Shown here: piece by piece, positions 18,606 to 42,813 of the stretch
Position numbering within the stretch: the first letter of the stretch is position 1
Layout: the number at the start of each line of letters is the position of its first letter
NCBI GenBank assembly: GCA_030536515.1
Contig: JAUNPV010000008.1
Coordinates: forward strand, 1-64,000
DNA length: 64,000 bases
DNA from: Eubacteriales bacterium
Lineage (GTDB): Bacteria; Bacillota; Clostridia; Oscillospirales; Oscillospiraceae
Direction of reading: 5' to 3'
Program-made: the position numbers and the translations under genes
The notes under the pieces: model-generated
Databases searched by the model: none
The model's input: only the letters and a program-made list of their open reading frames with translations
Told to the model about the DNA's origin: nothing

Positions 18606-18998
18606 TTACATTGCGCTGTAGATTCCGAAGAAGATGAAGGCCAGGGCCAGGTAGACGAGGCCGGACAGCAGCAGGTATTTGGGGCTTTTGGCCTTGCTTT
18701 CCCGGTCCGCCCGGTACTGGGCGAAGGTGAAGCGGTCCTGCTCATAGCTGCGGCGGATGCGGGCCAGGCCCAGCTTCAGGGTGAAGCCCAGGCCGTCCAT
18801 GACGCCGCCGTTGTAGGTCCACCGCAGGCCGCCCCAGCCCAGCTGCAAGGCCCCGGCGGCAAAGAACCCGTCGCACAGGTACATCACAGCTTCCGCGGCT
18901 GATTGGGCGGTGAACAGCCCCTGAATGGTCCAGACAATCAGGGCCATCACCAGGCCGAAGGCCAGCTCCAGCAGGAGCTTCCAAAGGGGCCGGTCCAT
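18606..18998 (-). CDS. DUF3899-like membrane protein
   Basis: A 130-residue protein with three membrane segments, at about residues 8-28 (LLLELAFGLVMALIVWTIQG), 38-58 and 108-128. The core GALQLGWGGLRWTYNGGVMD fits DUF3899, whose function is unknown. Its start codon overlaps the oppF stop (TGATG), so it is translated with the peptide importer, and the operon terminator follows directly. It could be an accessory of the transporter, but that is inferred only from position. Confidence 0.75.
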   Translation of the reverse strand: MDRPLWKLLLELAFGLVMALIVWTIQGLFTAQSAAEAVMYLCDGFFAAGALQLGWGGLRWTYNGGVMDGLGFTLKLGLARIRRSYEQDRFTFAQYRADRESKAKSPKYLLLSGLVYLALAFIFFGIYSAM

Positions 18999-20071
18999 CA
19001 GTCGGCCTCGACAATCTTCCGGTAGGCGGCCAGCTCCTCGTCATTGCACAGCACGAAGTGGCCCGGGCAGACCTCCCGGAAGGAGGGCTGGCTGGTCCGG
19101 TAGTCGTGGTCCGCAATGGGGTTGTAGACAATGCGCTTGCGGTTTTTCTCGTAGTTGGGGTCCGGCTGGGGAATGGCGGACAGCAGGGACCGGGTGTAGG
19201 GGTGCAGGGGATGCCTGAACAGCTCGTCAGAATCCGCCAGCTCCACCATCTTGCCGAAGTACATCACGCCGATGCGGTCGGAGAAATACTTGACAACGCT
19301 CAGGTCGTGGGCGATGAACAAAATGGTGATGCCCAGCTCGTTTCTCAAATCGTTCAGCAGATTGATAATCTGAGCACGGATGGACACGTCCAGGGCGGAA
19401 ATGGGCTCGTCGGCAATGACCAGGCTGGGCTCCATCACCAGGCTCCGGGCCACGCCGATTCTCTGGCGCTGGCCGCCGGAGAACTCATGGGGATACCGGG
19501 AGGCGTGCTCCCGGACCAGGCCCACGGTTTCCAGCATTTCGAAAACCTTGTTGTCGATGTATTCCTTGTCCTTGATGCCCTTGATGACCAGGCCCTCGGC
19601 GATGATATCCCGGACGGTCATACGGGGGTCCAGGGAGGCGATGGGGTCCTGGAAAATCATCTGAATTTCGTTGATGAGCTTCCGGTCGGCGTGCTTGTGG
19701 TCGGACTGGGCGGCCTTCATCTGGGCCTTCTGGTCGGCAATGACAGCGTCCAGCTCGGCCAGCCTGGCGGGGTCCTTGCAGGACCGCTTTTCCTTCCGGG
19801 CGGCGGCAATGGCGTCCTTGTAGCTCTTGGTGCCGGCACAGATGCGCTGGCCCTTGAACCAGACGCTGCCGGAGGTGATGTCATAGAGCTTGATGATGGA
19901 CCGGCCGGTGGTGGTCTTGCCGCAGCCGGACTCGCCTACCAGGCCGAACACCTCGCCCTTCTTGATATCGAAGGAGACATTGTCAACGGCCTTGTTGACG
20001 GAATTTGCGTCCAGACGGAAATACTGGCAGAGGTTTTCCACTCTCAGCAGAACTTCGTTTTCATTAGCCAT
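18998..20071 (-). CDS. oppF: Oligopeptide ABC transporter ATPase OppF
   Basis: A 357-residue ABC ATPase. Walker A GESGCGKTT (46-54), Q-loop MIFQDPIASLDP (from 138), signature FSGGQRQR (197-204), Walker B LVIADEPISALD, and the OppF/DppF C-terminal extension with cysteines EVCPGHFVLCND. A basic, probably coiled segment of about 50 residues (80-132, with KDAIAAARKEKR) is inserted between Walker A and the Q-loop; ordinary OppF lacks it. The start at 20071 follows CGGAGGTG. The gene overlaps oppD by eight bases. Confidence 0.93.
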   Translation of the reverse strand: MANENEVLLRVENLCQYFRLDANSVNKAVDNVSFDIKKGEVFGLVGESGCGKTTTGRSIIKLYDITSGSVWFKGQRICAGTKSYKDAIAAARKEKRSCKDPARLAELDAVIADQKAQMKAAQSDHKHADRKLINEIQMIFQDPIASLDPRMTVRDIIAEGLVIKGIKDKEYIDNKVFEMLETVGLVREHASRYPHEFSGGQRQRIGVARSLVMEPSLVIADEPISALDVSIRAQIINLLNDLRNELGITILFIAHDLSVVKYFSDRIGVMYFGKMVELADSDELFRHPLHPYTRSLLSAIPQPDPNYEKNRKRIVYNPIADHDYRTSQPSFREVCPGHFVLCNDEELAAYRKIVEAD

Positions 20072-22208
20072 TGTTTTCACCTCCGAGCTTACTCATGCGT
20101 GCAATACGCTCTTTCACGATTTCGGGCATCTCCACATGAGGAGCGTTGGGATGGAGCAGCCAGGTGGCTGCATAGTGGGTGTCGCTGATTTGGAACATGG
20201 GGGGCTGCTCCTCGAAGTCGATTTGCAGGGCGTACTTGTTCCGGGCGGCGAAGGCGTCGCCCACAGGGGGATAAATCATGTTAGGCGGCGTGCCGGGGAT
20301 AGCCTCCAGCTTGTCCTTGCTGTTAAGGTCCGGAATGGAGGCCAGCAGCGCCCAGGTGTAGGGGTGGGCGGGATGGTAGAACACGTCCTCGGCGGTGCCG
20401 TATTCCACAATCTTGCCGGCGTACATGACGGCAATCCGGTCGGCCATGTTGGCCACCACGCCCAGGTCATGGGTGATGAAGATAACGGACAGGTCCCGCT
20501 CCCGCTTCAGGTTGTTGATCAGCTCCAGAATCTGGGCCTGAATGGTTACGTCCAGAGCGGTGGTGGGCTCGTCGCAGATGAGGATATCCGGGTCTGCGGT
20601 GAGGGAAATGGCAATGACAATTCTCTGGCGCATACCGCCGGAGAACTCGAAGGGATACTGGTGGTAGCGCTTTCTGGCCTCGCTGATGCCCACCTGCTCC
20701 ATAATGCGGATGGCGGTATCCTTGGCCATGGAGCGGGTGATGCGGTGAATCTCGCCCAGGGCGGTTTCGTGGAGCCAGCTGACATAGGTGGCGCTGCGCT
20801 TTCCAAAGTCAAACTTGGCCACGGCCTCGGTCCGGGCGGCGAACTGGTCTTTCAGGGTCACCAGAATGTGGCTGATGCTCTCCCGGGCGATGTCCAGGTC
20901 CACCAGGGCCAGGGGGGCCACCTTGCCGTTGGGGGTCTTGCCCTTTGCCACGGCGGCCTCGTACTTGGCGGTCTGCTTGTCGAAGCGGGCCTGCTCGGTG
21001 ACGTTGCCGGAGACACCCTTGTAGTAGGTATCCAGGGCGCTGGAGAAGCTGACGCGGAAGGTGTAGGCAGAGCTTTCCTTCACGGTCTCCAGGGGATCAA
21101 TGGCGGCCTCTACAGTATCGGCCAGGGCGGCAGCCTTCTTCTTGGCCTCGGCCTCGGCGGGCATTTCGCCGCCAAAGTAGCTCTCGGCCTCGGAAAGGGC
21201 GGCCATGGCGGCCTTCATGCCCTCCACGGACTTCCGGGAGGAATATTCCAGAGCGGCCCGGGCGGAGTCCATGAATTTGGTCATAAAGGGGCCGGTGAGG
21301 CTGGGGGAGGTGAGCTTGTTGAGCTCAGCGGCAGTCTCATTGCCCAGGGTCTTTCCGTCCAGCACCAGATAGCAGGCCAGGGCGAAGAAGTCGGGGGCCT
21401 CGCAGGCCAGGGCCTCCTCCACCAGGCTGCGCAGCTCCGTGACCACGGGGGTCAGGCCCTTGCAGCTCTTGGCGTGGACGGCCTCGCCGCACTGCTTCAT
21501 CAGCTGGGCGGTCAGGGATTTCATCTTCTCGCCGTCACGGACCACAAAGTGGTCGATGGCGCCGTTGCAGTAGTTTTTCAGCTCCCGGCAGTCGCCCTTG
21601 ACATCGGTGAGGGCATCCTTCTCGATGGCCAGCAGCATATCGTCGCAGGCCTTCAGGGCGGCAGCAGCGTTGGTGTGGGCGGTGTCGTAGGGGCCCTCGT
21701 ACTTGGCCTCGGTTTTGATAATCCGGCGGAAGGTCTCAAACAGGGCCTTGTCCTCGGCCAGGCCTGCGCCCACCATGGAGGCGCTCATGTGCTTCAGGCT
21801 GGTGTTCAGCTTTTTCCGGCACTCCCGGCGGTTGGCCTTGTTTTTCAGCAGCATGGCCTCGGTCAGCTGCTTGCCCACCCGCATGATGGGGTTCAGACTG
21901 GACAGGGGGTCCTGGAACACCATGGCGATTTTGTCGCCCCGGATGGCGTGGAAGTCCTCCTCACTGATTTTCAGCAGGTCCTTGCCGTCGTAGAGGATTT
22001 CGCCGCCCTCGACGATGGTGTTGTTGGCGGAGATGCCCAGAATGGTTTTGGAGGTGGCGGACTTGCCGGAGCCGGACTCGCCGACGATGGCCAGAGTCTC
22101 GCCCTTGTAAAGGTCAAAATTGATGTCACGGACAGCCTGGAGCTTGCCGTTGACAGTGCGGAAGGAAATGGTCAGGTCCTTCACCTGGAGTTTCTTTTCA
22201 GTGCTCAT
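20064..22208 (-). CDS. oppD: Oligopeptide ABC transporter ATPase OppD with a ~370-residue insertion
   Basis: The protein has 714 residues, whereas OppD is usually about 330-350. Walker A GESGSGKS (43-50) and Q-loop VFQDPLSSLNP (97-107) come at the expected places. The frame then runs through about 370 extra residues (122-495), rich in Ala, Lys and Glu and probably helical, before GISEARKRYHQYPFEFSGGM leads into signature FSGGMRQR (522-529), Walker B ILICDEPTTALD (542-553) and ITHD (578-581). The OppD C-terminal extension follows. All catalytic motifs survive, so the ATPase should work. The insert lies in the helical subdomain that contacts the permease. Its start overlaps oppC (ATGA). Confidence 0.93.
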   Translation of the reverse strand: MSTEKKLQVKDLTISFRTVNGKLQAVRDINFDLYKGETLAIVGESGSGKSATSKTILGISANNTIVEGGEILYDGKDLLKISEEDFHAIRGDKIAMVFQDPLSSLNPIMRVGKQLTEAMLLKNKANRRECRKKLNTSLKHMSASMVGAGLAEDKALFETFRRIIKTEAKYEGPYDTAHTNAAAALKACDDMLLAIEKDALTDVKGDCRELKNYCNGAIDHFVVRDGEKMKSLTAQLMKQCGEAVHAKSCKGLTPVVTELRSLVEEALACEAPDFFALACYLVLDGKTLGNETAAELNKLTSPSLTGPFMTKFMDSARAALEYSSRKSVEGMKAAMAALSEAESYFGGEMPAEAEAKKKAAALADTVEAAIDPLETVKESSAYTFRVSFSSALDTYYKGVSGNVTEQARFDKQTAKYEAAVAKGKTPNGKVAPLALVDLDIARESISHILVTLKDQFAARTEAVAKFDFGKRSATYVSWLHETALGEIHRITRSMAKDTAIRIMEQVGISEARKRYHQYPFEFSGGMRQRIVIAISLTADPDILICDEPTTALDVTIQAQILELINNLKRERDLSVIFITHDLGVVANMADRIAVMYAGKIVEYGTAEDVFYHPAHPYTWALLASIPDLNSKDKLEAIPGTPPNMIYPPVGDAFAARNKYALQIDFEEQPPMFQISDTHYAATWLLHPNAPHVEMPEIVKERIARMSKLGGENNG

Positions 22209-23749
22209 TCGTCGGACCCCCTCAATGCAGGATTAAATGCGTCACGCAGACCGTTGCCAAACAGGTTAAAGGAAATTTCCAGCAGGGAAATAAACAGGGC
22301 GGGGAAGAAAATAATGTGGGGGAAGCTGGACAAATACTCCCGGCCGTTGGCCAGCATGGAGCCGATGGAGGTCATGGTGGAGCTGTCCAGGTTCACAATG
22401 CCCAGGTAAGTCAGGGTGGACTCGGTGAAGATGACGCCGGGGATAATCAGCACGGCGCTGGTGACGATGGTGCCCAGAGCGTTGGGGAAGATGTGCTTGA
22501 ACATCAGCCGGGCATCGCTGGCGCCCAGGGTCCGGGCTGCCAGGATATACTCCTGGCCCTTGAAGCGGTAAAACTGCATTCTCACCGTGGCGGCCATACC
22601 AATCCAGCCTGTGAGCACGAAGGCAAACAGCAGCGACGGCACAACGCCCACCCGCTTTGCCAGGTGCAGCTGGAACAATGTTGCGGTGACGATGAAGGGC
22701 ACCCGGGCCAGCACCTCGGTGATGCGCTCCATGACCATGTCCACGCTGCCGCCGTAGTAGCCCTCGATAGCGCCGTAGACAGCGCCGATGAACAGGTTCA
22801 CCAGGGAGATGCAGATGGAGAAGGTCAGGGAGAACCGACCGGCAGCGCCCAGACGGGTGAGGATATCCTGACCCATGGCGTTGGTGCCGAAGAAGAAGCC
22901 GGGCTCAAAGCCGTAGCGGTACTGGAAGTAGGTGTACTTGAAAATCCGGCACTTGTAGGACACGGAGGAGGAGTCGCCGGTGACAGCGGCATAGCGGTAG
23001 CGGTTTTCGGCCTCGGGATTGTCAAGGCCGGGGTCTCCCTCGATGCGCAGGGAGCTGTAAGCGCCGTCGTTGCCCTTGGTCTTGTAATCATCCACAAAGT
23101 TGCCGTCGGCATCCAGCTTGGCCGCGCCCTTCTTGTTGGCCACGTACCAGATGTTGGCGTCGGTGGCCTTGGCATCGTTGGTGGCGGGGTAGATGACCTG
23201 GATGCCGGTCTCATTCTGCCAGGCCTGGAGGTCCTGGTACTGCTTCTCCGTCAGGGTCATGTAGGTAAAGCCGTTGTTGACGTAGGAGTCCAGGCGGACC
23301 TTATAGGCCTCCTTGCCCTTTTCGTCCACGGTTTTGCCGTAGTCTCTGAGGATGTTCTTGTGGCCGGTCTCCTCGCCGATGGCCCGGGCGTAGTTGTAGT
23401 TGGCGGGGCCGAGGACGGTGGTGTAGCCGCCGTCCCAGAAGGGGATGCCCAGCTTGACGAACAGGTTATTCTTAGGCTGGAGCTTGGTGTAGCTGAGGTA
23501 GGTGGTGTCGGTCAGAGCCAGGGAATAGTTGGTCTCGCACAGCAGCGGCACGAAAATGGAGTACAGCACCAGCATGATAATGATGATGGCGGCCACCACG
23601 GAGCTTTTGTTCTTGCAGAACCGGCGGAAGGCGTCCCGGAAGTAGCCAACCTGCTTGGTTTCAAACTTCTGGTCGTGGAGCTTGGCATCGGTGCCGATGA
23701 ACTTGAAGCGCTCCGGAGAAATATCGGGAATATTGTTATTTTTCATCAT
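22205..23749 (-). CDS. oppC: Oligopeptide ABC transporter permease OppC with a large extracellular insertion
   Basis: The protein has 514 residues, against about 300 for usual OppC. A cytoplasmic N-terminus and helix 1 (about 51-70) come first. Where a short loop normally leads to the conserved GTN/GTD-GRD segment, there are about 200 residues (72-280) rich in Tyr, Asp and Asn, ending at FFFGTNAMGQDILTRLG (286-301). The remaining helices and the EAA loop (YILAARTLGASDARLMFKHI, from 401) are normal. Topology puts the insert outside the cell, facing the binding protein. Start: two adjacent ATGs after GGGGAG; the first overlaps the oppB stop. Confidence 0.93.
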   Translation of the reverse strand: MMKNNNIPDISPERFKFIGTDAKLHDQKFETKQVGYFRDAFRRFCKNKSSVVAAIIIIMLVLYSIFVPLLCETNYSLALTDTTYLSYTKLQPKNNLFVKLGIPFWDGGYTTVLGPANYNYARAIGEETGHKNILRDYGKTVDEKGKEAYKVRLDSYVNNGFTYMTLTEKQYQDLQAWQNETGIQVIYPATNDAKATDANIWYVANKKGAAKLDADGNFVDDYKTKGNDGAYSSLRIEGDPGLDNPEAENRYRYAAVTGDSSSVSYKCRIFKYTYFQYRYGFEPGFFFGTNAMGQDILTRLGAAGRFSLTFSICISLVNLFIGAVYGAIEGYYGGSVDMVMERITEVLARVPFIVTATLFQLHLAKRVGVVPSLLFAFVLTGWIGMAATVRMQFYRFKGQEYILAARTLGASDARLMFKHIFPNALGTIVTSAVLIIPGVIFTESTLTYLGIVNLDSSTMTSIGSMLANGREYLSSFPHIIFFPALFISLLEISFNLFGNGLRDAFNPALRGSDE

Positions 23750-24723
23750 TTCTTACTCCCCATTCTGATTCTCGGATCAATGATACCGTAGCTGATATCC
23801 ACAACGATACCGGCAGTCAGGCCGATGAGGGTGTAGAAGGCGGACAGCAGCAGGAAGAAATTGTAGTCCAGTGCGGTGATGGAGTTGATCATCAGGTTGC
23901 CAACGCCGGGCACCACGAAAATGTTCTCGATGATGATGGAGCCCTGCATGACCAGAATCACCTCGGAGATGATGGAGGGGAAAATGGGCACCATGGCGTT
24001 GCGCAGAGCGTGGCGCACGGTGGTCTGGGCCCGGGTCAAGCCCTTGGTCCGGGCCAGCAGCAGATACTCGCTGGTCAGCACCTCGGTCAGCTCGGCCCGG
24101 GTGTAGCGGGCGTAGTAGGCGATGGAGCCCAGGGACATGGCCAGCACCGCAGGCACCATGGAGCGGAACATCACGCCGGAGAAATAATCGTTGCCGGCCT
24201 CCATGACCAGGGGGAACAGCTTCAGCTTGAAGCACAGGAAATACTGAATCATAAAGGCATAGACGTAGCTGGGCACGGAAATACCCACCATAATGCCGGT
24301 GGAAATGGCGTGGTCCTGCCACTTATTCTTTTTCAGAGCGGCGTAAATGCCCAGGCTCAGGCCCAGGGGCACCGCCAGGCAGGAGGCATACAGGTTGACA
24401 AGCACGGTGTTGGGCAGCTTTTTCAGGAACACCTCAAAGCAGTCCTGGCCCCGGTACAGCTTTTCGCTGATGCCCCAGTTGCCGCCGATGAGGGTGTTGC
24501 GGATAAACTTTCCATACTGGGCCATGAGGGGAATGGGGTTACCCTGCTTGTCCACCAGGCCCTGGCGGTAGCGGCTCTGCAGCACCAGCTCCATGTCCTT
24601 GCCGAACATGGTGGGGGTCTCATTGGGCAGCAGCCGAATGAGGATGAAGCAGACGGAGATGATTATAAAAAACGTCAAAAGCATGAAAACAACACGCTTT
24701 GCGACGTATTTTGCCGTATTCAT
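23746..24723 (-). CDS. oppB: Oligopeptide ABC transporter permease OppB
   Basis: A 325-residue permease of ordinary length. There is an N-terminal helix (VVFMLLTFFIIISVCFILIR), a first extracellular loop containing GGNWGISEKLYRGQ, then five further helices and the EAA motif LLLARTKGLTRAQTTVRHAL. It pairs with OppC to form the channel. The start at 24723 follows GGGAGGAAA. It is the only component of this system without a visible insertion. A 326-bp gap with a repeat and a hairpin separates it from oppA. Confidence 0.94.
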   Translation of the reverse strand: MNTAKYVAKRVVFMLLTFFIIISVCFILIRLLPNETPTMFGKDMELVLQSRYRQGLVDKQGNPIPLMAQYGKFIRNTLIGGNWGISEKLYRGQDCFEVFLKKLPNTVLVNLYASCLAVPLGLSLGIYAALKKNKWQDHAISTGIMVGISVPSYVYAFMIQYFLCFKLKLFPLVMEAGNDYFSGVMFRSMVPAVLAMSLGSIAYYARYTRAELTEVLTSEYLLLARTKGLTRAQTTVRHALRNAMVPIFPSIISEVILVMQGSIIIENIFVVPGVGNLMINSITALDYNFFLLLSAFYTLIGLTAGIVVDISYGIIDPRIRMGSKK

Positions 24724-24873
24724 AAGGTTTCCTCCCTATTGTATTTTTAGGAAAATGCCGTGAGGGGAAGCGCTATCCTCGGAAGGATGGCCGGCACTAA
24801 ACCGGCTTTGACAGGATAACTCCTATCCCATCACGAGAAAAGGCCGATGTAACGCCTTGTATATATTGGATGA

Positions 24874-24948
24874 CCCGTAGGGAACGGATTTATCCGTTCC
24901 GCTTCCGGGCGCTTCCCATACGGAACGGATAAATCCGTTCCCTACGGG
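24874..24948. repeat. Paired-hairpin repeat (CGTAGGG border), full copy
   Basis: A 28-bp arm beginning CCCGTAGGGAACGGATTTAT is repeated as a perfect inverted copy ending CCGTTCCCTACGGG, with about 19 bases between. Each arm is itself a hairpin (GGAACGGAT / ATCCGTTCC). Half copies occur at 42904, 59004 and 59135. Confidence 0.9.
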
Positions 24949-24977
24949 CTGAATCCGGACTTATTCCGGACAGCACG

Positions 24978-25009
24978 GTCTGGAATAGGGGTTTCCCCCT
25001 ATTCCAGAC
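24978..25009 (-). terminator. Hairpin at the 3' end of oppA
   Basis: A 14-bp perfect stem, GTCTGGAATAGGGG and its complement, with a 4-base loop and no T-run, lies 41 bases past the oppA stop. It probably stabilises the oppA message or reduces read-through into oppB. The rest of 24724-25049 holds the repeat at 24874 and no gene. Confidence 0.6.
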
Positions 25010-25049
25010 TTGCAGCTTATGGTGTATTTACCCGAAACCAGCCTGAAAA

Positions 25050-27515
25050 TCAGGTGTAATCCAGGGAGTTGTTGTTGGAGGCGACGTACTCGTCCCACTC
25101 AGCGTCGGTGTAGTTGAAGGTGATGTACTCGTAATCACCGAAGCCGATGGGGAAGATGTAATCCTCAGTGCCGTACTCCACCTGCTGGCCCTTCAGCTGA
25201 GCAGCGGAGTTGTCCATCAGGGGGATGAAGTTGAAGTTCAGCAGAACAGCGCCTTCCATCGCGCCCAGGATGTGCAGACGGGTCTCGGGGTCCTTCTCGG
25301 GGTAGCCGCACTTGTAGCCTTCCAGAACGGTGCCGTCGGCAGCGGTCAGGTCGGTGGGCTCGCCCATCATGACGGAGTACCAGTCAGTGACGGGAGCGGT
25401 GTAGTCCACGCCGTCGATGTTGATGGTCAGGTCAATCTTGGTGTAGTCAAATGCGCCGTCGTACTGATAGTTGGGCATGATGTATGCCTCCATCAGGCCG
25501 AAGGGATCCATGGCGGAGCCGGTCCAGCCCACACCGAACAGCATATCAACCTGGTTGTTCTTCAGAGCGTCGGAGAAGGCGTTGCCGATGGTGTCGTCCT
25601 TGGAGAAGGTCAGCTTGCCTTCCAGCTTGGTGCCCTTGACAGCCTCGGTGTAGTTGTTGACGATGTACTCATAGCCGTTGGTGTAGAACTTGGAGGTAGC
25701 GGAGGGCAGGCCGATCTTGATTTCGATGACGTCGTCCTCGTCCATCAGCTTCTGGGCAATGGCCTCGTCGTAGGCGATGTCGAACATCTCCTGAGCCTTG
25801 GCCAGGTTGTAGCCGGTGATGGAGTTGATAGCCTCGTCGATGTCAGCGTACAGCTTGCCTTCGCCGTAGTCCTCGCTCACGCCCCAGAACTTAGCCAGGA
25901 CTTCCTTGGACACGTCGGTGGAGCGGTAGGTCACGCCGTTGTCGGGGTCAGAGATAATCTGAGTGGAGAACAGGCCGAAGGCGGGGGTGTTGGTGGGAGA
26001 GGTAGCCAGGCAGAAGTTCTTGCGGTCCATAGCCAGGGACATAGCCTGACGGAAGGTGGGCAGAGTCAGAATGGTCTTGTTGATGTTGTCGCCGGCGTTC
26101 TTCTGAGCCTCTTCCAGACCGGCCTTGCCGGGGTTGAAGGCCATGGCGAAGGTGGAGTCGCCGGTGGCGTAGTAGGTGTAGTCGGACAGGGAGTAGGTCT
26201 CCATGTCGTCAGCGCCCAGGCTGTAGACATCCAGCTTGCCCTGCTGGAACAGCTCCAGACGGGTGGCAGCCTCGGGGACATAGTCGGTGACGACGCTGGT
26301 GGCCTGGTACTTGCCGTCCAGGTCGAAGTAGTTCTCGTTGCGCTCGAAGACGAACTGCTTGTCAGCCTGGAAGGAGGTCAGCTTGTAGGGTCCGAAGGAC
26401 ACGGTGGTCTCAGCGGAGGTGCCGTAGGTGTTGGAGTAAACGCCGTCGGTGACCTTGGCCAGGGAGTCATACAGGTCGGTCTTGACAACGTAGGAATCGG
26501 TCAGAGCGTACTTCAGGTAGAAGCCGTCCAGAGGCTTGTCGATGACGTAGACCAGCTCGTAGTCGCTCTTGGCAATCACGCCGACCTCGTCGAAGCTCAT
26601 CTCGGGGAAGACCTTCTCGTAGGCCAGGTAGTTGAAGGCGTCAGCCTCGGTCTCGCCCCAGGCGGGGTTGCCGGTGATGATGTCAACCAGCATAGCGTAG
26701 GTGTCGTCGGTCAGAGGAGCAACGCCGTTGGCATCAGCCAGGGCAGCCAGCTCTTCCCAGCGGTCCAGCTTGAAGTACTGCTCGCCGTAATTTTCAATGT
26801 AATTCTTCAGGGTGTCGCCGCTGGTCCAGTCCAGAGCCATGTCAACGGCAACGTAGCAGGCCTCACCGTCGGGGGTGGAGTAGGTGCCGTCGTCGTTCTT
26901 GGTCAGGTCGGCCAGGGTGTAGGCAGCGTTCACGCCGTTGTCCAGGTACTCGGTCTTGCCGTTGTACAGGTAGTTCTGAGCATTGTGGATGACCATGTTG
27001 CCGGTGTAGGTGCCGTCAGCACGGTAGTTCATGGCAACGGGGTCCAGCAGGCGCTTGTAGGACTCGACATAGTCAGTGGCGGTGATGGGGGTGCCATCCT
27101 CCCACTTGACGTTCTCGTTCAGCTTAATCAGCCATGCCTGGTTCACGGCGCCCTCCTCCAGGCCGTACTGGCCGATGTACTCGGCAGTCACGTCCTCAGG
27201 CTCGGCAGCGGCGGCATGGGGACGCAGCACGTAGCTGGTTCTGTCCTCATTGTAGTCAAACCGGTACAGACCGGCCACCACGTAATCCAGAATGGTGGAG
27301 TCGTCGTTGGTCTGGTTGGTGTGAGGGTTCCAGTTGGTGGGGAACACCTGCACAGCCTTGTTGTAGGTGTAGGTTGCGTCGGGGTCAGCGCTGGCTGCGG
27401 GAGCCTCGGTAGCGGCGCTTGCGTCGGTAGCGGGGGTCTCAGCAGGCTTGTTGCCGCAGGCAGCCAGGGACAGAGCCATAGCCAGAACCAGCAGCAGAGC
27501 AATCAGCTTTTTCAT
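25050..27515 (-). CDS. oppA: Oligopeptide-binding lipoprotein OppA, enlarged
   Basis: The protein has 821 residues; family 5 binding proteins are typically 500-600. The signal peptide MKKLIALLLVLAMALSLAAC carries a lipobox LAAC, followed by an Ala/Thr/Glu linker. The fold starts near TYTYNKAVQVFPTNWNPHT and contains NENVKWEDGTPITATDYVES, the usual family 5 signature region, and later TFRQAMSLAMDRKNF. Extra length is spread through the middle and C-terminal regions (for example the NYGEQYFKLDRWEELAALAD segment). It should capture peptides outside the cell and dock to OppB/OppC. It has a consensus promoter and an AGGAGGAAA site and heads the opp operon. Confidence 0.93.
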   Translation of the reverse strand: MKKLIALLLVLAMALSLAACGNKPAETPATDASAATEAPAASADPDATYTYNKAVQVFPTNWNPHTNQTNDDSTILDYVVAGLYRFDYNEDRTSYVLRPHAAAAEPEDVTAEYIGQYGLEEGAVNQAWLIKLNENVKWEDGTPITATDYVESYKRLLDPVAMNYRADGTYTGNMVIHNAQNYLYNGKTEYLDNGVNAAYTLADLTKNDDGTYSTPDGEACYVAVDMALDWTSGDTLKNYIENYGEQYFKLDRWEELAALADANGVAPLTDDTYAMLVDIITGNPAWGETEADAFNYLAYEKVFPEMSFDEVGVIAKSDYELVYVIDKPLDGFYLKYALTDSYVVKTDLYDSLAKVTDGVYSNTYGTSAETTVSFGPYKLTSFQADKQFVFERNENYFDLDGKYQATSVVTDYVPEAATRLELFQQGKLDVYSLGADDMETYSLSDYTYYATGDSTFAMAFNPGKAGLEEAQKNAGDNINKTILTLPTFRQAMSLAMDRKNFCLATSPTNTPAFGLFSTQIISDPDNGVTYRSTDVSKEVLAKFWGVSEDYGEGKLYADIDEAINSITGYNLAKAQEMFDIAYDEAIAQKLMDEDDVIEIKIGLPSATSKFYTNGYEYIVNNYTEAVKGTKLEGKLTFSKDDTIGNAFSDALKNNQVDMLFGVGWTGSAMDPFGLMEAYIMPNYQYDGAFDYTKIDLTINIDGVDYTAPVTDWYSVMMGEPTDLTAADGTVLEGYKCGYPEKDPETRLHILGAMEGAVLLNFNFIPLMDNSAAQLKGQQVEYGTEDYIFPIGFGDYEYITFNYTDAEWDEYVASNNNSLDYT

Positions 27516-28266: not shown

Positions 28267-28441
28267 CGGGGGTTGCGAATCCTGTCGCATTCATTTATGC
28301 AGCATATCGTGCATAAATATTTACTCACAAGCTGTATAAATCCATCGAATAACTGCACAATCTCCCCTGTCCTCCATCCTTTTATGAACAATACCCATTC
28401 TGCCGGTAAAATCCTCCACCAACCTTGTGCATTTCCCCCTC

Positions 28442-28470
28442 TTGACTGTGTATATTATTCGTTGTATAAT
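28442..28470 (+). promoter_or_regulatory. Consensus promoter of the amino-acid binding protein gene
   Basis: TTGACT (28442), 17 bp and TATAAT (28465-28470), 58 bp before the start codon. Confidence 0.9.
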
Positions 28471-28528
28471 TCACTCATTGACTCACCCCTTCCTGGAAGG
28501 GGCCAATGCTGAAAAAGGAGAGTTTCTT

Positions 28529-29335
28529 ATGAAAAAGTTATTTGCTGTTATTCTGACCGTTGCCATGGTCGCCGCCCTGTTTGCCGGCTGCGGTGCCAAG
28601 GAGGCCCCCGCCACCGAAGCGCCCACTGCTGCCCCGGCCGCTGCCATGACTGTGACCCCCGGCAAGCTGACCATGGCCACCTCCGCCGACTTCCCTCCCT
28701 ATGAGTTCACCAACGACGACGGCTCCTTCGCCGGTATCGACATCGACATCGCCCAGGCCGTGGCCGAGAAGCTGGGCATGGAGCTGGAGGTCCTGGACCT
28801 GGGCTTTGATGCCGCCCTGCTGGCCGTCCAGAACGGCAAGTCCGACATCGTCCTGGCCGGTGTCTCCGTCACCGAGGACCGCCAGCTGGTCATGGACTTC
28901 TCCGATTCCTACGCCACCGGCATCCAGAAGGTCATTATCAAGGAAGGCTCCGATGTGACCATGGACAACCTGGGCGAGAAGATGATCGGCTGCCAGAAGG
29001 CCACCACCGGCTACATCTACGCCTCCGACACCCCCGAAAACGGCGGCTACGGCGAGGACCACGTCATTGCCTACGAGGACGGCGCCACCGCTGTCCAGGC
29101 CCTGCTGAACGGCCAGATTGACTGCGTCATCATCGACGGCGCACCCGCAGAGGCCTTCGTGGATGCCAACCCGGGCCTGGCCATGCTGGACGGCACCTGG
29201 GTGGAGGAATCCTACGCCATCGGCATCGCCAAGGGCAACGCCGCCCTGGTGGAGGCCGTCAACGCTGCCCTGGCCCAGCTGAAGGCCGACGGCACCCTGG
29301 ACGCCATCGTGGCAAAGTACATTTCTGCGGAATAA
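28529..29335 (+). CDS. Amino-acid ABC transporter binding lipoprotein
   Basis: A 268-residue family 3 solute-binding protein. Signal peptide MKKLFAVILTVAMVAALFAG with lipobox FAGC and an Ala/Pro/Thr linker. The fold opens with LTMATSADFPPYEFTNDDGS, then GIDIDIAQAVAEKLG and the GKSDIVLAGVSVTEDR segment characteristic of polar amino-acid binders. A C-terminal YAIGIAKGNAALVEAVN matches the family. It feeds the permease at 29787. The start follows AAAAGGAGAG. Ligand (for example a polar or basic amino acid) not determinable. Confidence 0.93.
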   Translation: MKKLFAVILTVAMVAALFAGCGAKEAPATEAPTAAPAAAMTVTPGKLTMATSADFPPYEFTNDDGSFAGIDIDIAQAVAEKLGMELEVLDLGFDAALLAVQNGKSDIVLAGVSVTEDRQLVMDFSDSYATGIQKVIIKEGSDVTMDNLGEKMIGCQKATTGYIYASDTPENGGYGEDHVIAYEDGATAVQALLNGQIDCVIIDGAPAEAFVDANPGLAMLDGTWVEESYAIGIAKGNAALVEAVNAALAQLKADGTLDAIVAKYISAE

Positions 29336-29339
29336 AAAC

Positions 29340-29387
29340 GGAACATTCCCTGCGAACCATCCCCCGGGATGGTTCGCAGTCTGTTCC
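29340..29387 (+). terminator. Hairpin after the binding-protein gene
   Basis: CTGCGAACCATCCC / GGGATGGTTCGCAG (29350-29379) is a 14-bp perfect stem, extended by GGAACA/TGTTCC outside. It has no T-run. It probably protects the message or limits read-through to the permease. Confidence 0.6.
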
Positions 29388-29397
29388 CCAAAGCCTT

Positions 29398-29670
29398 CCC
29401 CAAATACCTTCCCCCGGGGGGAAGGTGGATTGCCCGAAGGGCAAGACGGATGAGGGATGGCGTGCACCTGGATTTAGTGAATAGTGAAGAGTGAAGAAGT
29501 AAGAGGTGAGGTATCGGCTTCGCCGATGATTTTGAATAAGTGGCGAAGCCACACCTTAACTATTCACTCTTCACTATTACTTCTTCACTAGCTTTCAGCT
29601 GTCGCCATCCCTCATCCGCCCCAGTGTGCGCACTGGGGCACCTTCCCCCCGGGGGAAGGAATTGGGTGCG
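29398..29670. repeat. Interspersed repeat, CCTTCCCCCGGGGG family, copy 2 (interrupted)
   Basis: Carries the same left end as the copy at 27785 (AATACCTTCCCCCGGGGGGA through GATGAGGGATGGCGTGCAC) and the same right end (GTCGCCATCCCTCATC to CCTTCCCCCCGGGGGAAGG). Its middle is replaced by a different long palindrome at 29475-29590. Confidence 0.8.
29475..29590. repeat. Palindromic insert nested in the interspersed repeat
   Basis: The left arm, TAGTGAATAGTGAAGAGTGA and onward, faces a right arm ending TTACTTCTTCACTA; both arms are built from GTGAA / TTCAC units around an inner ATCGGCTTCGCCGAT hairpin. It looks like a second element inserted into, or a variant core of, the repeat at 29398. Confidence 0.7.
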
Positions 29671-29711
29671 GGGAAGGTATTGGTGCGGGGGAAGGCTTTG
29701 GAAGGAATTGC

Positions 29712-29740
29712 TTGCAGAAAGCCGTTTTTTGTGGTAGAGT
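29712..29740 (+). promoter_or_regulatory. Possible promoter of the amino-acid permease genes
   Basis: TTGCAG (29712), 17 bp and TAGAGT (29735). It would allow the permease and ATPase to be expressed apart from the binding protein. Confidence 0.45.
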
Positions 29741-29786
29741 GTAAAAAAGGCGTTTTTCTGGAAACAATTACAAATGGAGTGATTTT

Positions 29787-30551
29787 GTGGAACAATACGA
29801 GCTTTGGAAGGCCCTGCTGCGGCAGGGGACCGACCTTCCCTTCTGGCAGGATTTCTATGTGAAATTCTACCAGGCATTTTTTGAAAACAACCGCTGGCAG
29901 CAGTATCTCAAGGGCGTGGGCACCACCCTGTGGGTCACGGCTCTGGCCCTGGCCCTGGGCATTGTGCTGGGCATTCTGGTGGCCGTCGTCCGGTCCGCCC
30001 ACGACCAGCAGCGGCCCGGCCGGAAAAATCCGGTGCTGTCCGCCGTCAACGGTCTGTGCCGGGTCTACGTCACCGTCATTCGGGGCACGCCCATGATGGT
30101 CCAGCTGCTGATTATGGGCATGGTGATTTTCGCCAGCTCCCGGGACTTTACCTCCGTGGGCGCTCTGACCCTGGGCATCAACTCCGGGGCTTATGTGTCC
30201 GAGATTATCCGGGGCGGCCTCATGGCCCTGGACCCCGGCCAGGCCGAGGCCAGCCGGTCTCTGGGCATGAACTATGTGGACACCATGCGCTTTGTGGTGA
30301 TTCCCCAGGCCTTCAAGGCCATTCTTCCGGCCCTGGGCAACGAGTTCATCATGCTTTTGAAGGACACCTCCCTCATCACCTACATCGGCGGCAAGGAGCT
30401 GCTGTACGCCGCCCAGGGCATCTACGGCCGGACCTACGAGGCCATGTACCCTCTGCTCATCACCGCATTTATGTACCTGATTCTGGTGGTTATTTTCACC
30501 TGGCTCCAGGGCATTCTGGAAAGGAGGCTGCGTCAAAGTGATCGACGTTAA
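29787..30551 (+). CDS. Amino-acid ABC transporter permease (HisM/GlnP type)
   Basis: A 254-residue membrane protein. The N-terminal helix region [20 protein letters not shown] is typical of polar amino-acid permeases, and the coupling loop is [20 protein letters not shown] followed by [17 protein letters not shown]. It starts at a GTG preceded by ATGGAGTG. It overlaps the ATPase gene by 14 bases. The binding protein is encoded 450 bp upstream, beyond an interspersed repeat that seems to have entered this operon. Confidence 0.92.
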
Positions 30552-31260
30552 GCATCTGAGCAAATCCTTCGGCGACCATCTGGTGCTGGACGACATCTCC
30601 GAGCAAATCTGCCCCGGGGACAAGGTGGTCATCATCGGCCCCTCCGGCTCCGGCAAGTCCACATTCCTGCGCAGCCTCAACCTGCTGGAATCCCCCTCCG
30701 GGGGCACCATCACCTTTGACGGCGTGGTCATCACCGACCCCAAAACCGACATCGACGCCGTCCGCCGGAAGATGGGCATGGTGTTCCAGCACTTTAACCT
30801 GTTCCCCAACATGACCATCCTGAAAAACATCACCCTGGCCCCGGTGCGCACGGGGCTGATGAAGCAGGCCCAGGCCGAGGAGCTGGCCATGAGCCTGCTG
30901 AAACGGGTGGGGCTGGAGGAAAAGGCTTCCGCCTATCCCAACCAGCTCTCCGGCGGCCAGAAGCAGCGCATCGCCATCGTCCGGGCCCTGGCTATGAATC
31001 CCCAGGTGATGCTCTTTGACGAGCCCACCTCCGCCCTGGACCCGGAAATGGTGGGCGAGGTGCTGGCAGTTATGAAGGAGCTGGCCAAGGGCGGCATGAC
31101 CATGGTGGTGGTCACCCACGAAATGGGCTTCGCCCGGGAGGTGGGCAGCCGCATCCTGTTTATGGACCAGGGCAAAATCCTGGAGCAGGGCCCCCCCGAG
31201 GCCGTCTTCGGCAACCCCCAGCACCCCCGGCTCAAGGACTTTTTGTCCAAGGTATTGTGA
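30538..31260 (+). CDS. Amino-acid ABC transporter ATPase (GlnQ type)
   Basis: A 240-residue ABC ATPase. Walker [11 protein letters not shown]-loop [13 protein letters not shown], signature [19 protein letters not shown], Walker [21 protein letters not shown], switch histidine in VVTHEMGF. The length and [12 protein letters not shown] region are typical of GlnQ/HisP. It starts at GTG after AAAGGAGGC and is the last gene of its unit, followed by a strong terminator. Confidence 0.94.
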
Positions 31261-42214: not shown

Positions 42215-42392
42215 GAGTGAAATCGTTTGCTTGCGCAAACTGTGAAATGTGGGCTGAAGCCCACGTGAAATTTTCTGCTGCGCAGAAAGTGAAATAAAAT
42301 TTGCCCCCCACGCACCGCAGTGCATTTCACGTGCGAAGCACATTTCACTCCGCAAAGCGGAATTTCACTTGCCCGAAGGGCAAATTTCACTG
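42215..42392. repeat. Hairpin array with 7-bp GTGAAAT/ATTTCAC spacers, array 1
   Basis: At least seven small palindromes (for example GTGGGCTGAAGCCCAC, TTTCTGCTGCGCAGAAA, GTGCGAAGCAC, TCCGCAAAGCGGA, TTGCCCGAAGGGCAA) are separated by GTGAAAT on the left side and ATTTCAC on the right side. The spacers can pair with each other across the array, so the transcript could fold into a branched structure. It lies between tRNA-Thr and the MATE gene. Confidence 0.85.
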
Positions 42393-42427
42393 AAAAAAGC
42401 ACTTGCCCAACAGGCAAGTGCTTTTTT
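42393..42427 (-). terminator. Terminator of tRNA-Thr copy 1
   Basis: AAAAAAGCACTTGCC / GGCAAGTGCTTTTTT, a 15-bp perfect stem with a T-run on the minus strand. Confidence 0.92.
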
Positions 42428-42428
42428 C

Positions 42429-42504
<76 letters not shown>

Positions 42505-42528
42505 AGATGTCTTTCAGACAGCTTTTGC

Positions 42529-42557
42529 ATTATACTGTATCCTGGGGGAAATGTCAA
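42529..42557 (-). promoter_or_regulatory. Promoter of tRNA-Thr copy 1
   Basis: On the minus strand, TTGACA (42557-42552), 17 bp and TATAAT (42534-42529). Confidence 0.92.
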
Positions 42558-42573
42558 GAAGTTTTTTATGTTT

Positions 42574-42701
42574 TGTGAAATATTTTGCTGAAGCAAAATG
42601 TGAAATGAAAAAAACCGCCCACGCCCGCAGGCATTTCACGTGCGAAGCACATTTCACTCCGCAAAGCGGAATTTCACTTGCCCGAAGGGCAAATTTCACT
42701 G
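42574..42701. repeat. Hairpin array with GTGAAAT/ATTTCAC spacers, array 2
   Basis: Holds ATTTTGCTGAAGCAAAAT between GTGAAAT spacers, then GTGCGAAGCAC, TCCGCAAAGCGGA and TTGCCCGAAGGGCAA between ATTTCAC spacers. The right part is shared with array 1; the left hairpins differ. Confidence 0.85.
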
Positions 42702-42736
42702 AAAAAAGCACTTGCCCAACAGGCAAGTGCTTTTTT
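42702..42736 (-). terminator. Terminator of tRNA-Thr copy 2
   Basis: Identical to the terminator at 42393. Confidence 0.92.
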
Positions 42737-42737
42737 C

Positions 42738-42813
<76 letters not shown>

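Follow-up and report, generated by a model that had tools for sequence, protein, structure and literature searches.

The stretch of DNA analysed here, referred to as the window, comprises 64,000 nucleotides from an Eubacteriales bacterium of the Oscillospiraceae (assembly GCA_030536515.1, contig JAUNPV010000008.1, positions 1 to 64,000 of the forward strand). On its minus strand lies an operon with the complete gene set of an ATP-binding cassette (ABC) peptide importer of the oligopeptide (Opp) type, consisting of a binding protein (OppA), two permeases (OppB, OppC) and two ATPases (OppD, OppF), together with a sixth gene for a membrane protein of the family DUF3899 (Table 1). As the original prediction, made from the sequence of the window, had stated, OppA, OppC, OppD and OppF are enlarged and OppB is of normal length, and both ATPases are intact in their motifs, retaining Walker A, Q-loop, signature and the oligo_HPY region. 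The products matched the Pfam families SBP_bac_5, BPD_transp_1, OppC_N, ABC_tran, oligo_HPY and DUF3899. Adjacent genes overlap by 4 (OppB/OppC), 4 (OppC/OppD) and 17 bases (OppD/OppF), and the DUF3899 gene is coupled to the end of the operon, again as predicted, by an overlap of 1 base with OppF (TGATG). The best NCBIfam models were those of the Mollicutes proteins MMSYN1_0167/0168 for the ATPases and Opp3B/Opp3C for the permeases, with all scores well under the curated cut-offs, and OppA did not reach the cut-off of any NCBIfam model for which a score was listed.

Table 1. Features of the enlarged Opp operon in the window, with their basis.
Feature	Position	Strand	Description	Basis
Operon	18606-27515	minus	OppA-B-C-D-F and DUF3899 protein	
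OppA	25050..27515	-	Lipoprotein solute-binding protein, 821 residues	PF00496, 126 bits; lipobox in sequence
OppA insert	26592..27032	-	About residues 162-308, ~120 more than canonical binding proteins	Alignment gap versus 5kzt
OppB	23746..24723	-	Permease of normal length, 325 residues	PF00528; Opp3B, 232.5 bits (cut-off 480)
OppC	22205..23749	-	Permease, 514 residues	PF00528 and PF12911; Opp3C, 257.3 bits (cut-off 450)
OppC extracytoplasmic domain	22895..23536	-	About residues 72-285 (~200 extra), between TM1 and TM2	Alignments, hydropathy
OppD	20064..22208	-	ATPase, 714 residues	PF00005, PF08352; NF043079 (MMSYN1_0167), 467.6 bits (cut-off 740)
OppD insert	20736..21827	-	Residues 128-491 (365 residues), Q-loop to signature	No TM segment by hydropathy
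OppF	18998..20080	-	ATPase, 360 residues, GTG start	PF00005, PF08352; NF043078 (MMSYN1_0168), 415 bits (cut-off 800)
OppF insert	19697..19837	-	About residues 82-128 (44 residues), Walker A to Q-loop	Spacing 95 versus 51; borders approximate
DUF3899 protein	18606..18998	-	Membrane protein, 130 residues, proposed sixth component	PF13038; TGATG overlap with OppF; hydropathy; co-occurrence

The additional residues of OppA were located by alignment to the 5kzt chain, in which OppA residues 127-161 and 309-502 correspond to residues 75-109 and 134-307, respectively. In OppC they follow the first transmembrane (TM) segment on the outer side of the membrane, TM segments being called by hydropathy only unless stated otherwise. 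For the ATPases, the sites of insertion were read from the distances between Walker A and Q-loop and between Q-loop and signature, which amount to 56 and 423 residues in OppD and to 95 and 56 residues in OppF of the window, compared to 55 and 58 in OppD and 51 and 57 in OppF of E. coli K-12. The OppD insert, situated between Q-loop and signature, therefore lies in the helical subdomain, whereas the OppF insert, measured at 44 residues, occupies a different site, before the Q-loop. The locations in the binding protein, on the outer face of OppC and in the helical subdomain of OppD are those that had been predicted. Sequence searches returned no convincing known fold for the inserts: the OppC ectodomain gave no Pfam or NCBIfam match and no convincing sequence match in the PDB, the OppD insert matched no Pfam or NCBIfam family, and its best PDB match (sc-apCC-6-SLLA, by name a designed coiled coil; E 0.0037) was not convincing. 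Matches of inserts to lipocalin and UHRF1 (E ≥ 0.023) were dismissed as noise.

Relatives were collected by a scan of one genome per species with an OppC profile, in which at least 562 relatives were confirmed among at least 595 candidate stretches, and the best 80 of these confirmed relatives were kept for study. Altogether 126 systems were examined, 88 with long OppC, including one with a truncated OppC that was added by hand (L037), and 38 without. As the systems were found through OppC and ranked by match, OppC length is a selected trait in 80 of the 88 long systems; the other traits are unselected in this sample. OppD of several short loci was assigned by hand, and OppD of L175 and L181 and OppF of L099, which gave no motif match, stand outside the motif-based counts. 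A second sample was chosen by DUF3899 from 197 order-level genomes; 28 of these were over the cut-off, of which 26 were examined (L228-L253), the other two being the window and G030, and at least four of their contigs, judged by equal length, recur in the first sample (loci L079, L096, L104, L115). A third sample was drawn evenly across phyla (249 genomes), and a fourth contained 40 closer relatives, including the genome of the window itself.

Long OppC was present in all 80 loci kept from the scan (499-563 residues; best 80 of at least 562), which excludes an artefact of a single assembly as the source of the lengths. By record names, the same 80 fall into Clostridia (63), Spirochaetia (4), Bacilli (3), Mollicutes (3), Erysipelotrichia (2) or no named class (5), names that are perhaps loose, as most of the records are by title assemblies from metagenomes, often of the gut or rumen. 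Of the 249 genomes sampled evenly across phyla, 69 had OppC matches with E ≤ 1e-45, but full length was covered only by the window's own. Among long systems, the OppD insert was found in 79 of 82 complete OppD (all but L071, L073 and L131), the insert before the Q-loop in 78 of 79 complete OppF (all but L070), and an OppA of at least 770 residues in 72 of 74; the remaining two OppA, of L060 and L130, are each split into two open reading frames (ORFs), which may reflect a frameshift or an assembly error. The loci chosen by DUF3899 yielded the same anatomy, with the insert in all 24 OppD seen (spacing 424-452), 507-548 residues in all 23 OppC and 822-890 residues in all 22 complete OppA. In the short set, none of 31 measurable OppD had an insert between Q-loop and signature, and in plasmid records there was no place covering 80% of the N-terminal part of OppD plus insert. 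The inserts diverge faster than the cores that carry them: mean pairwise identity is 38% for the OppC insert versus 70% for the core (87 systems), and 29% versus 78% for OppD (76 systems).

OppF varies further among the relatives. In 12 of the 79 complete OppF of the long set (L075, L087, L092, L093, L098, L099, L100, L101, L103, L123, L127, L130), the protein has 802-844 residues, and an N-terminal TM segment, an ectodomain of about 320 residues and a second TM segment precede the ATPase domain; because L075 branches apart from the other carriers, this extension must have moved between lineages or have been acquired or lost repeatedly. A comparison led to rejection of homology between the extension and the OppD insert. 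In three loci (L105:14097-15770, L122:13743-15482 and L126), a TM-ectodomain-TM hairpin is placed within the insert between Walker A and Q-loop. The ectodomain of L105 OppF matches DUF3592 under threshold (17.5 versus 25.3 bits), and OppD of the same locus (L105:11585-14104, Anaerocaecibacter muris) has an extra C-terminal extension, with 291 residues from the signature on versus about 194 in most.

In the Dpp system of E. coli, each ATPase holds a [4Fe-4S] cluster in its C-terminal part, and the complex is abolished when the ligands are mutated, as described in PMC12136057. A four-cysteine motif of the Dpp-type spacing is absent from the long clade, window included (0/82 OppD, 0/78 OppF, the latter count being 78 instead of 79 because OppF of L099 has no motif match). 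The other OppD separate cleanly: all 13 outside one branch carry the motif and all 18 inside it lack it (106 rows; support by the Shimodaira-Hasegawa-like approximate likelihood-ratio test (SH-aLRT) 100). OppF agrees with this split except in L176b, a short ORF of 279 residues without the motif outside the branch. In a 28-row OppD tree with named lactobacillar Opp systems, loss of the motif is a single change (support 100/99). By sequence, the window system appears to belong to a branch with lactobacillar Opp3 and Mollicutes-type systems, in which OppD and OppF are devoid of the C-terminal iron-sulphur (Fe-S) ligands.

The DUF3899 protein of the window scored 24.6 bits against PF13038, slightly over the Pfam gathering cut-off of 23.4 bits, and that of a relative (L098) 58.3 bits; three TM segments were called in four relatives, and two exceed the threshold in the window protein. 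The gene follows OppF directly in 74 of the 78 long systems that have at least 500 bases of room, and two of the four exceptions (L059, L060) carry it upstream of OppA, as do 3 of the 4 loci named as spirochaetal. Among the 197 order-level genomes, DUF3899 was found in 26 of 26 with long OppD and in 2 of the 171 others (Fisher's exact test, 1.9e-30, kinship ignored), and in these two (L238, L247) the contig ends within the Opp operon. In the sample of closer relatives, long OppD and DUF3899 over the cut-off occur in exactly the same 8 genomes, and across phyla the family exceeded the cut-off in 5 of 249 genomes, the window's included. DUF3899 is tied to the system about as tightly as the inserts are. 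In other orders it lies after OppC (L168), antisense between OppA and OppB (L178) or divergent from OppA (L170), and in the short set it directly follows OppF only in L044 (21 systems with assigned OppF and room). The genomes of L168, L170, L178 and a fourth, G272, have Opp systems of the same branch that are normal-sized or intermediate, and the Fe-S motif is absent in three of the four (L168 is outside the count). As it accompanies normal-sized relatives, DUF3899 looks older than the enlargement, and adjacency to Opp that is kept under altered gene order points to a function. Plasmid records gave no DUF3899 match.

Covariation between the parts was assessed by correlating pairwise distances in 59 systems, with the cores controlled for and 499 permutations, owing to which p is never below 0.002; the two systems with split OppA were excluded here and from the length contrasts given below. 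OppA covaries with the OppC ectodomain (partial r 0.40, p 0.002). The OppD insert covaries with neither OppA (partial r 0.04, p 0.27) nor the OppC ectodomain (0.10, p 0.074), and does so with the cores of OppD (0.48) and OppF (0.24). DUF3899 likewise covaries with the cores of OppF (0.20, p 0.002) and OppD (0.14, p 0.006), its value with OppA being -0.20. The additions on the two sides of the membrane are inherited separately, as two modules rather than one. Of the earlier proposal that the inserts evolved together, co-occurrence and the covariation of OppA and OppC thus held, whereas the OppD insert departs from both outer parts; independent occurrence across genomes was seen in a minority only, 3 of 82 OppD and 1 of 79 OppF. 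Contact of the OppD insert with the OppC domain or the OppA insert was ruled out, as it is separated from both by the membrane and covaries with neither. OppA length correlates with the summed N-terminal length of OppB and OppC at a raw r of 0.89 and, by independent contrasts, at r 0.41 (p 2e-5, n = 101); ranked, the contrasts gave a Spearman coefficient of 0.23 (p 0.02) overall and of 0.14 (p 0.25) within the long clade, where r was 0.36 (p 0.002). The idea that OppA length tracks ectodomain length was set aside, the relation being weak once corrected for kinship.

Trees of OppBC and OppDF reject each other (76 systems; log-likelihood differences of 1872 and 980; approximately unbiased test, p < 1e-100), so the two halves of the operon have probably been exchanged; a comparable pattern is described for appAB versus appDF of Bacillus subtilis in PMC10569065. 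In separate trees of 71-73 chosen rows, OppBC of L071 and L073 nests beside L063 and their OppF groups with L131 (support 88), while their OppD takes part in a basal fork with L133 and the remaining insert carriers, just above L131, with unsettled branching. Loss of the OppD insert by deletion in these two loci, suggested by a concatenated tree, was rejected in favour of a module swap, which fits the separate trees better, at modest support; L071 and L073 look like natural chimeras of a long outer module and an insert-less OppD. In the group sister to the long clade (L044, L167-L169), OppC has 378-410 and OppA 588-608 residues and OppD is devoid of the insert, and L131, basal in the long clade, has all parts but the OppD insert. 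The outer domain therefore seems to precede the OppD insert, an order taken from quick trees, of which the concatenated one mixes halves of differing history.

Compared with known systems, the window has the binding protein, two permeases and two ATPases with all ATPase motifs of E. coli OppABCDF and DppABCDF, but these are without large inserts, and the Fe-S cysteine motif, missing in the window, is present in both Opp ATPases of E. coli. Opp3-type systems (Pediococcus, Lactobacillus plasmid opp) have the same subunits, in Pediococcus in the same gene order, and are likewise free of the Fe-S motif in OppD and OppF. They differ in being without any insert, the Pediococcus proteins being of normal size (OppA 539, OppC 332, OppD 350 and OppF 326 residues), and the window does not reach the Opp3B and Opp3C cut-offs. 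We take AmiC of the streptococcal Ami system (AmiACDEF) to be the OppB-like subunit. According to PMC11192437, AmiC has 498 residues, and its residues 31-278 are predicted to form two ectodomains with which it could clamp the binding protein. Ami resembles the window in having one permease with a large extracellular part, as OppC has after TM1, but it is AmiC that is enlarged and AmiD (308 residues) that is not, whereas in the window OppC is enlarged and OppB normal. With the Mollicutes-type systems, for which NCBIfam models and loci L046-L050 stood in for mycoplasma sequences, the window shares enlarged ATPases, and the cores of its OppD and OppF score best there, although both remain under the MMSYN1_0167/0168 cut-offs. 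L046-L050, from the same genus as the window, carry a different, Mollicutes-like enlarged Opp system; OppD of L046 matches MMSYN1_0167 over its full length (720.9 bits, slightly below the cut-off of 740). In these loci OppB (523-532 residues) is enlarged in place of OppC, the OppD insert lies before the Q-loop (290/58 in L046) and not after it, and OppF ends in a pair of TM segments, as judged by eye. As these loci are enlarged at other sites, enlargement of peptide ABC transporters has happened more than once.

In our interpretation, the system is a peptide importer of ABC type I whose OppA is clamped by the OppC ectodomain and whose ATPases are held in place or tuned by DUF3899 and the inserts on the cytoplasmic side, a reading to which we assign a probability of roughly 55%. 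On the outside, the OppC ectodomain of about 200 residues and the OppA insert would form an enlarged docking interface, and the ectodomain would clamp the loaded binding protein in the manner predicted for AmiC. On the inside, the OppD insert on the helical subdomain and the OppF insert may act as peripheral assembly or regulatory elements of the ATPase pair, with DUF3899, translated directly after OppF, as a dedicated sixth component working with the ATPase side. Some of the function in assembly that was lost with the Fe-S domains may in this way have passed to DUF3899 and the inserts. In a more far-reaching scenario, which we regard as doubtful, the lineage repeatedly recruited new membrane and helical elements to hold the ATPases after a single loss of the Fe-S clamp domains; these would be the OppD insert, a genuine sixth subunit in DUF3899 and, in relatives, the TM hairpin and ectodomain that OppF itself carries. 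If this is true, some ABC importers would have an ATPase subunit that is itself a membrane protein with parts exposed on the outside of the cell.

Several points weigh against the clamp-and-hold interpretation. Contacts between inserts and their partners, the membership of DUF3899 in the complex and the peptide substrate are proposals drawn from sequence. Profile comparison detected no relationship between the OppC ectodomain and that of the OppB-enlarged systems L046-L050 of the same genus (0.2% probability). The covariation blocks are not clean: the OppD core covaries both with OppA (0.19, p 0.002) and with the OppC ectodomain (0.14, p 0.024), and a further correlation joins OppA to OppB (0.50). 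Covariation may also reflect exchange of operon halves, not contact. Regarding DUF3899, L070 has only a weak downstream match and in L100 none was found; G024 and G044 have sub-threshold matches in stretches without Opp genes by profile, and DUF3899 of G272 sits away from Opp. Normal-sized Fe-S-less systems exist, such as those of Pediococcus and the Lactobacillus plasmid, so loss of the cluster permits enlargement but does not force it. Finally, the low identity of the OppD insert would also suit a loosely constrained accretion.

Such accretion, neutral or under weak selection, would mean that insertion-tolerant loops grew with little function. It would fit the identities of 29% in the insert versus 78% in the core and the natural systems without the OppD insert (L071, L073, L131) or the OppF insert (L070), but presence and position of the insert are kept in 79 of 82 OppD, DUF3899 stays beside Opp in altered gene orders, and OppC ectodomain and OppA covary; we consider it improbable. 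The same fast evolution of the inserts, the placement of the OppD insert on the helical subdomain and the OppF of relatives with hydrophobic segments flanking an ectodomain (12 loci) or within the Walker A-to-Q-loop insert (3 loci) are also compatible with a regulatory role, in which OppD insert and OppF extensions would gate transport in response to a signal from the cytosol or the membrane, making the system a regulated importer or a sensor. This possibility we likewise regard as doubtful, given that no known regulatory domain was matched and no neighbouring gene is conserved, the commonest flanking family occurring at 13 of 76 loci. As to the substrate, nickel chelates, opines or sugars are handled by other family 5 binding proteins, and none of the NCBIfam models listed for OppA of the window reached its cut-off. 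Nevertheless, the top-scoring models for the ATPases and the permeases alike are those of oligopeptide families, and two named relatives in the branch without the Fe-S motif bear a peptide-system annotation, which makes a non-peptide system very unlikely. Tuning to longer peptides, which the original prediction had proposed, could draw on the correlation of OppA length with the summed N-terminal length of OppB and OppC (contrasts r 0.41). We nevertheless rate it as unlikely, because the rank contrasts are weak and not significant within the long clade, and because normal-sized Opp systems are described in PMC10569065 as accepting peptides from 3 to as many as 23 residues long.

Beyond the six operon genes, no conserved neighbour was common among the 76 loci compared. 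Beside the operon in the window, divergent genes (28427-31260) resemble an amino-acid ABC importer with binding protein, permease and ATPase, as judged by eye, and the commonest flanking family mentioned above is the ATPase of this importer type. In L066, L112 and L124, an Opp operon with short OppC (OppB of 499 residues in L066) lies directly upstream of the long-type operon. Directly downstream of the long operon in L094 (15425-20183) are two large ABC proteins of 704 and 889 residues, the ATPase parts of which best match LolD and bacteriocin-export models. Elsewhere in the window (42319-42813, minus strand) there are two Gut-1 RNAs, each adjoining a tRNA, in a duplicated arrangement.

No description of this six-gene variant was found in the literature of the searched open library, which misses most subscription journals, and the word DUF3899 is absent from the papers of that library. 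Peptide uptake is important to gut fermenters, and the variant is present in dozens of mostly uncultured species, many of them from gut or rumen. DUF3899, a family without known function, gains a concrete role that can be tested, and the chimeras and insert-less relatives can be used for asking what each added domain contributes. With the clusters being essential in E. coli Dpp, the system also raises the question of what holds Fe-S-less peptide transporters together.

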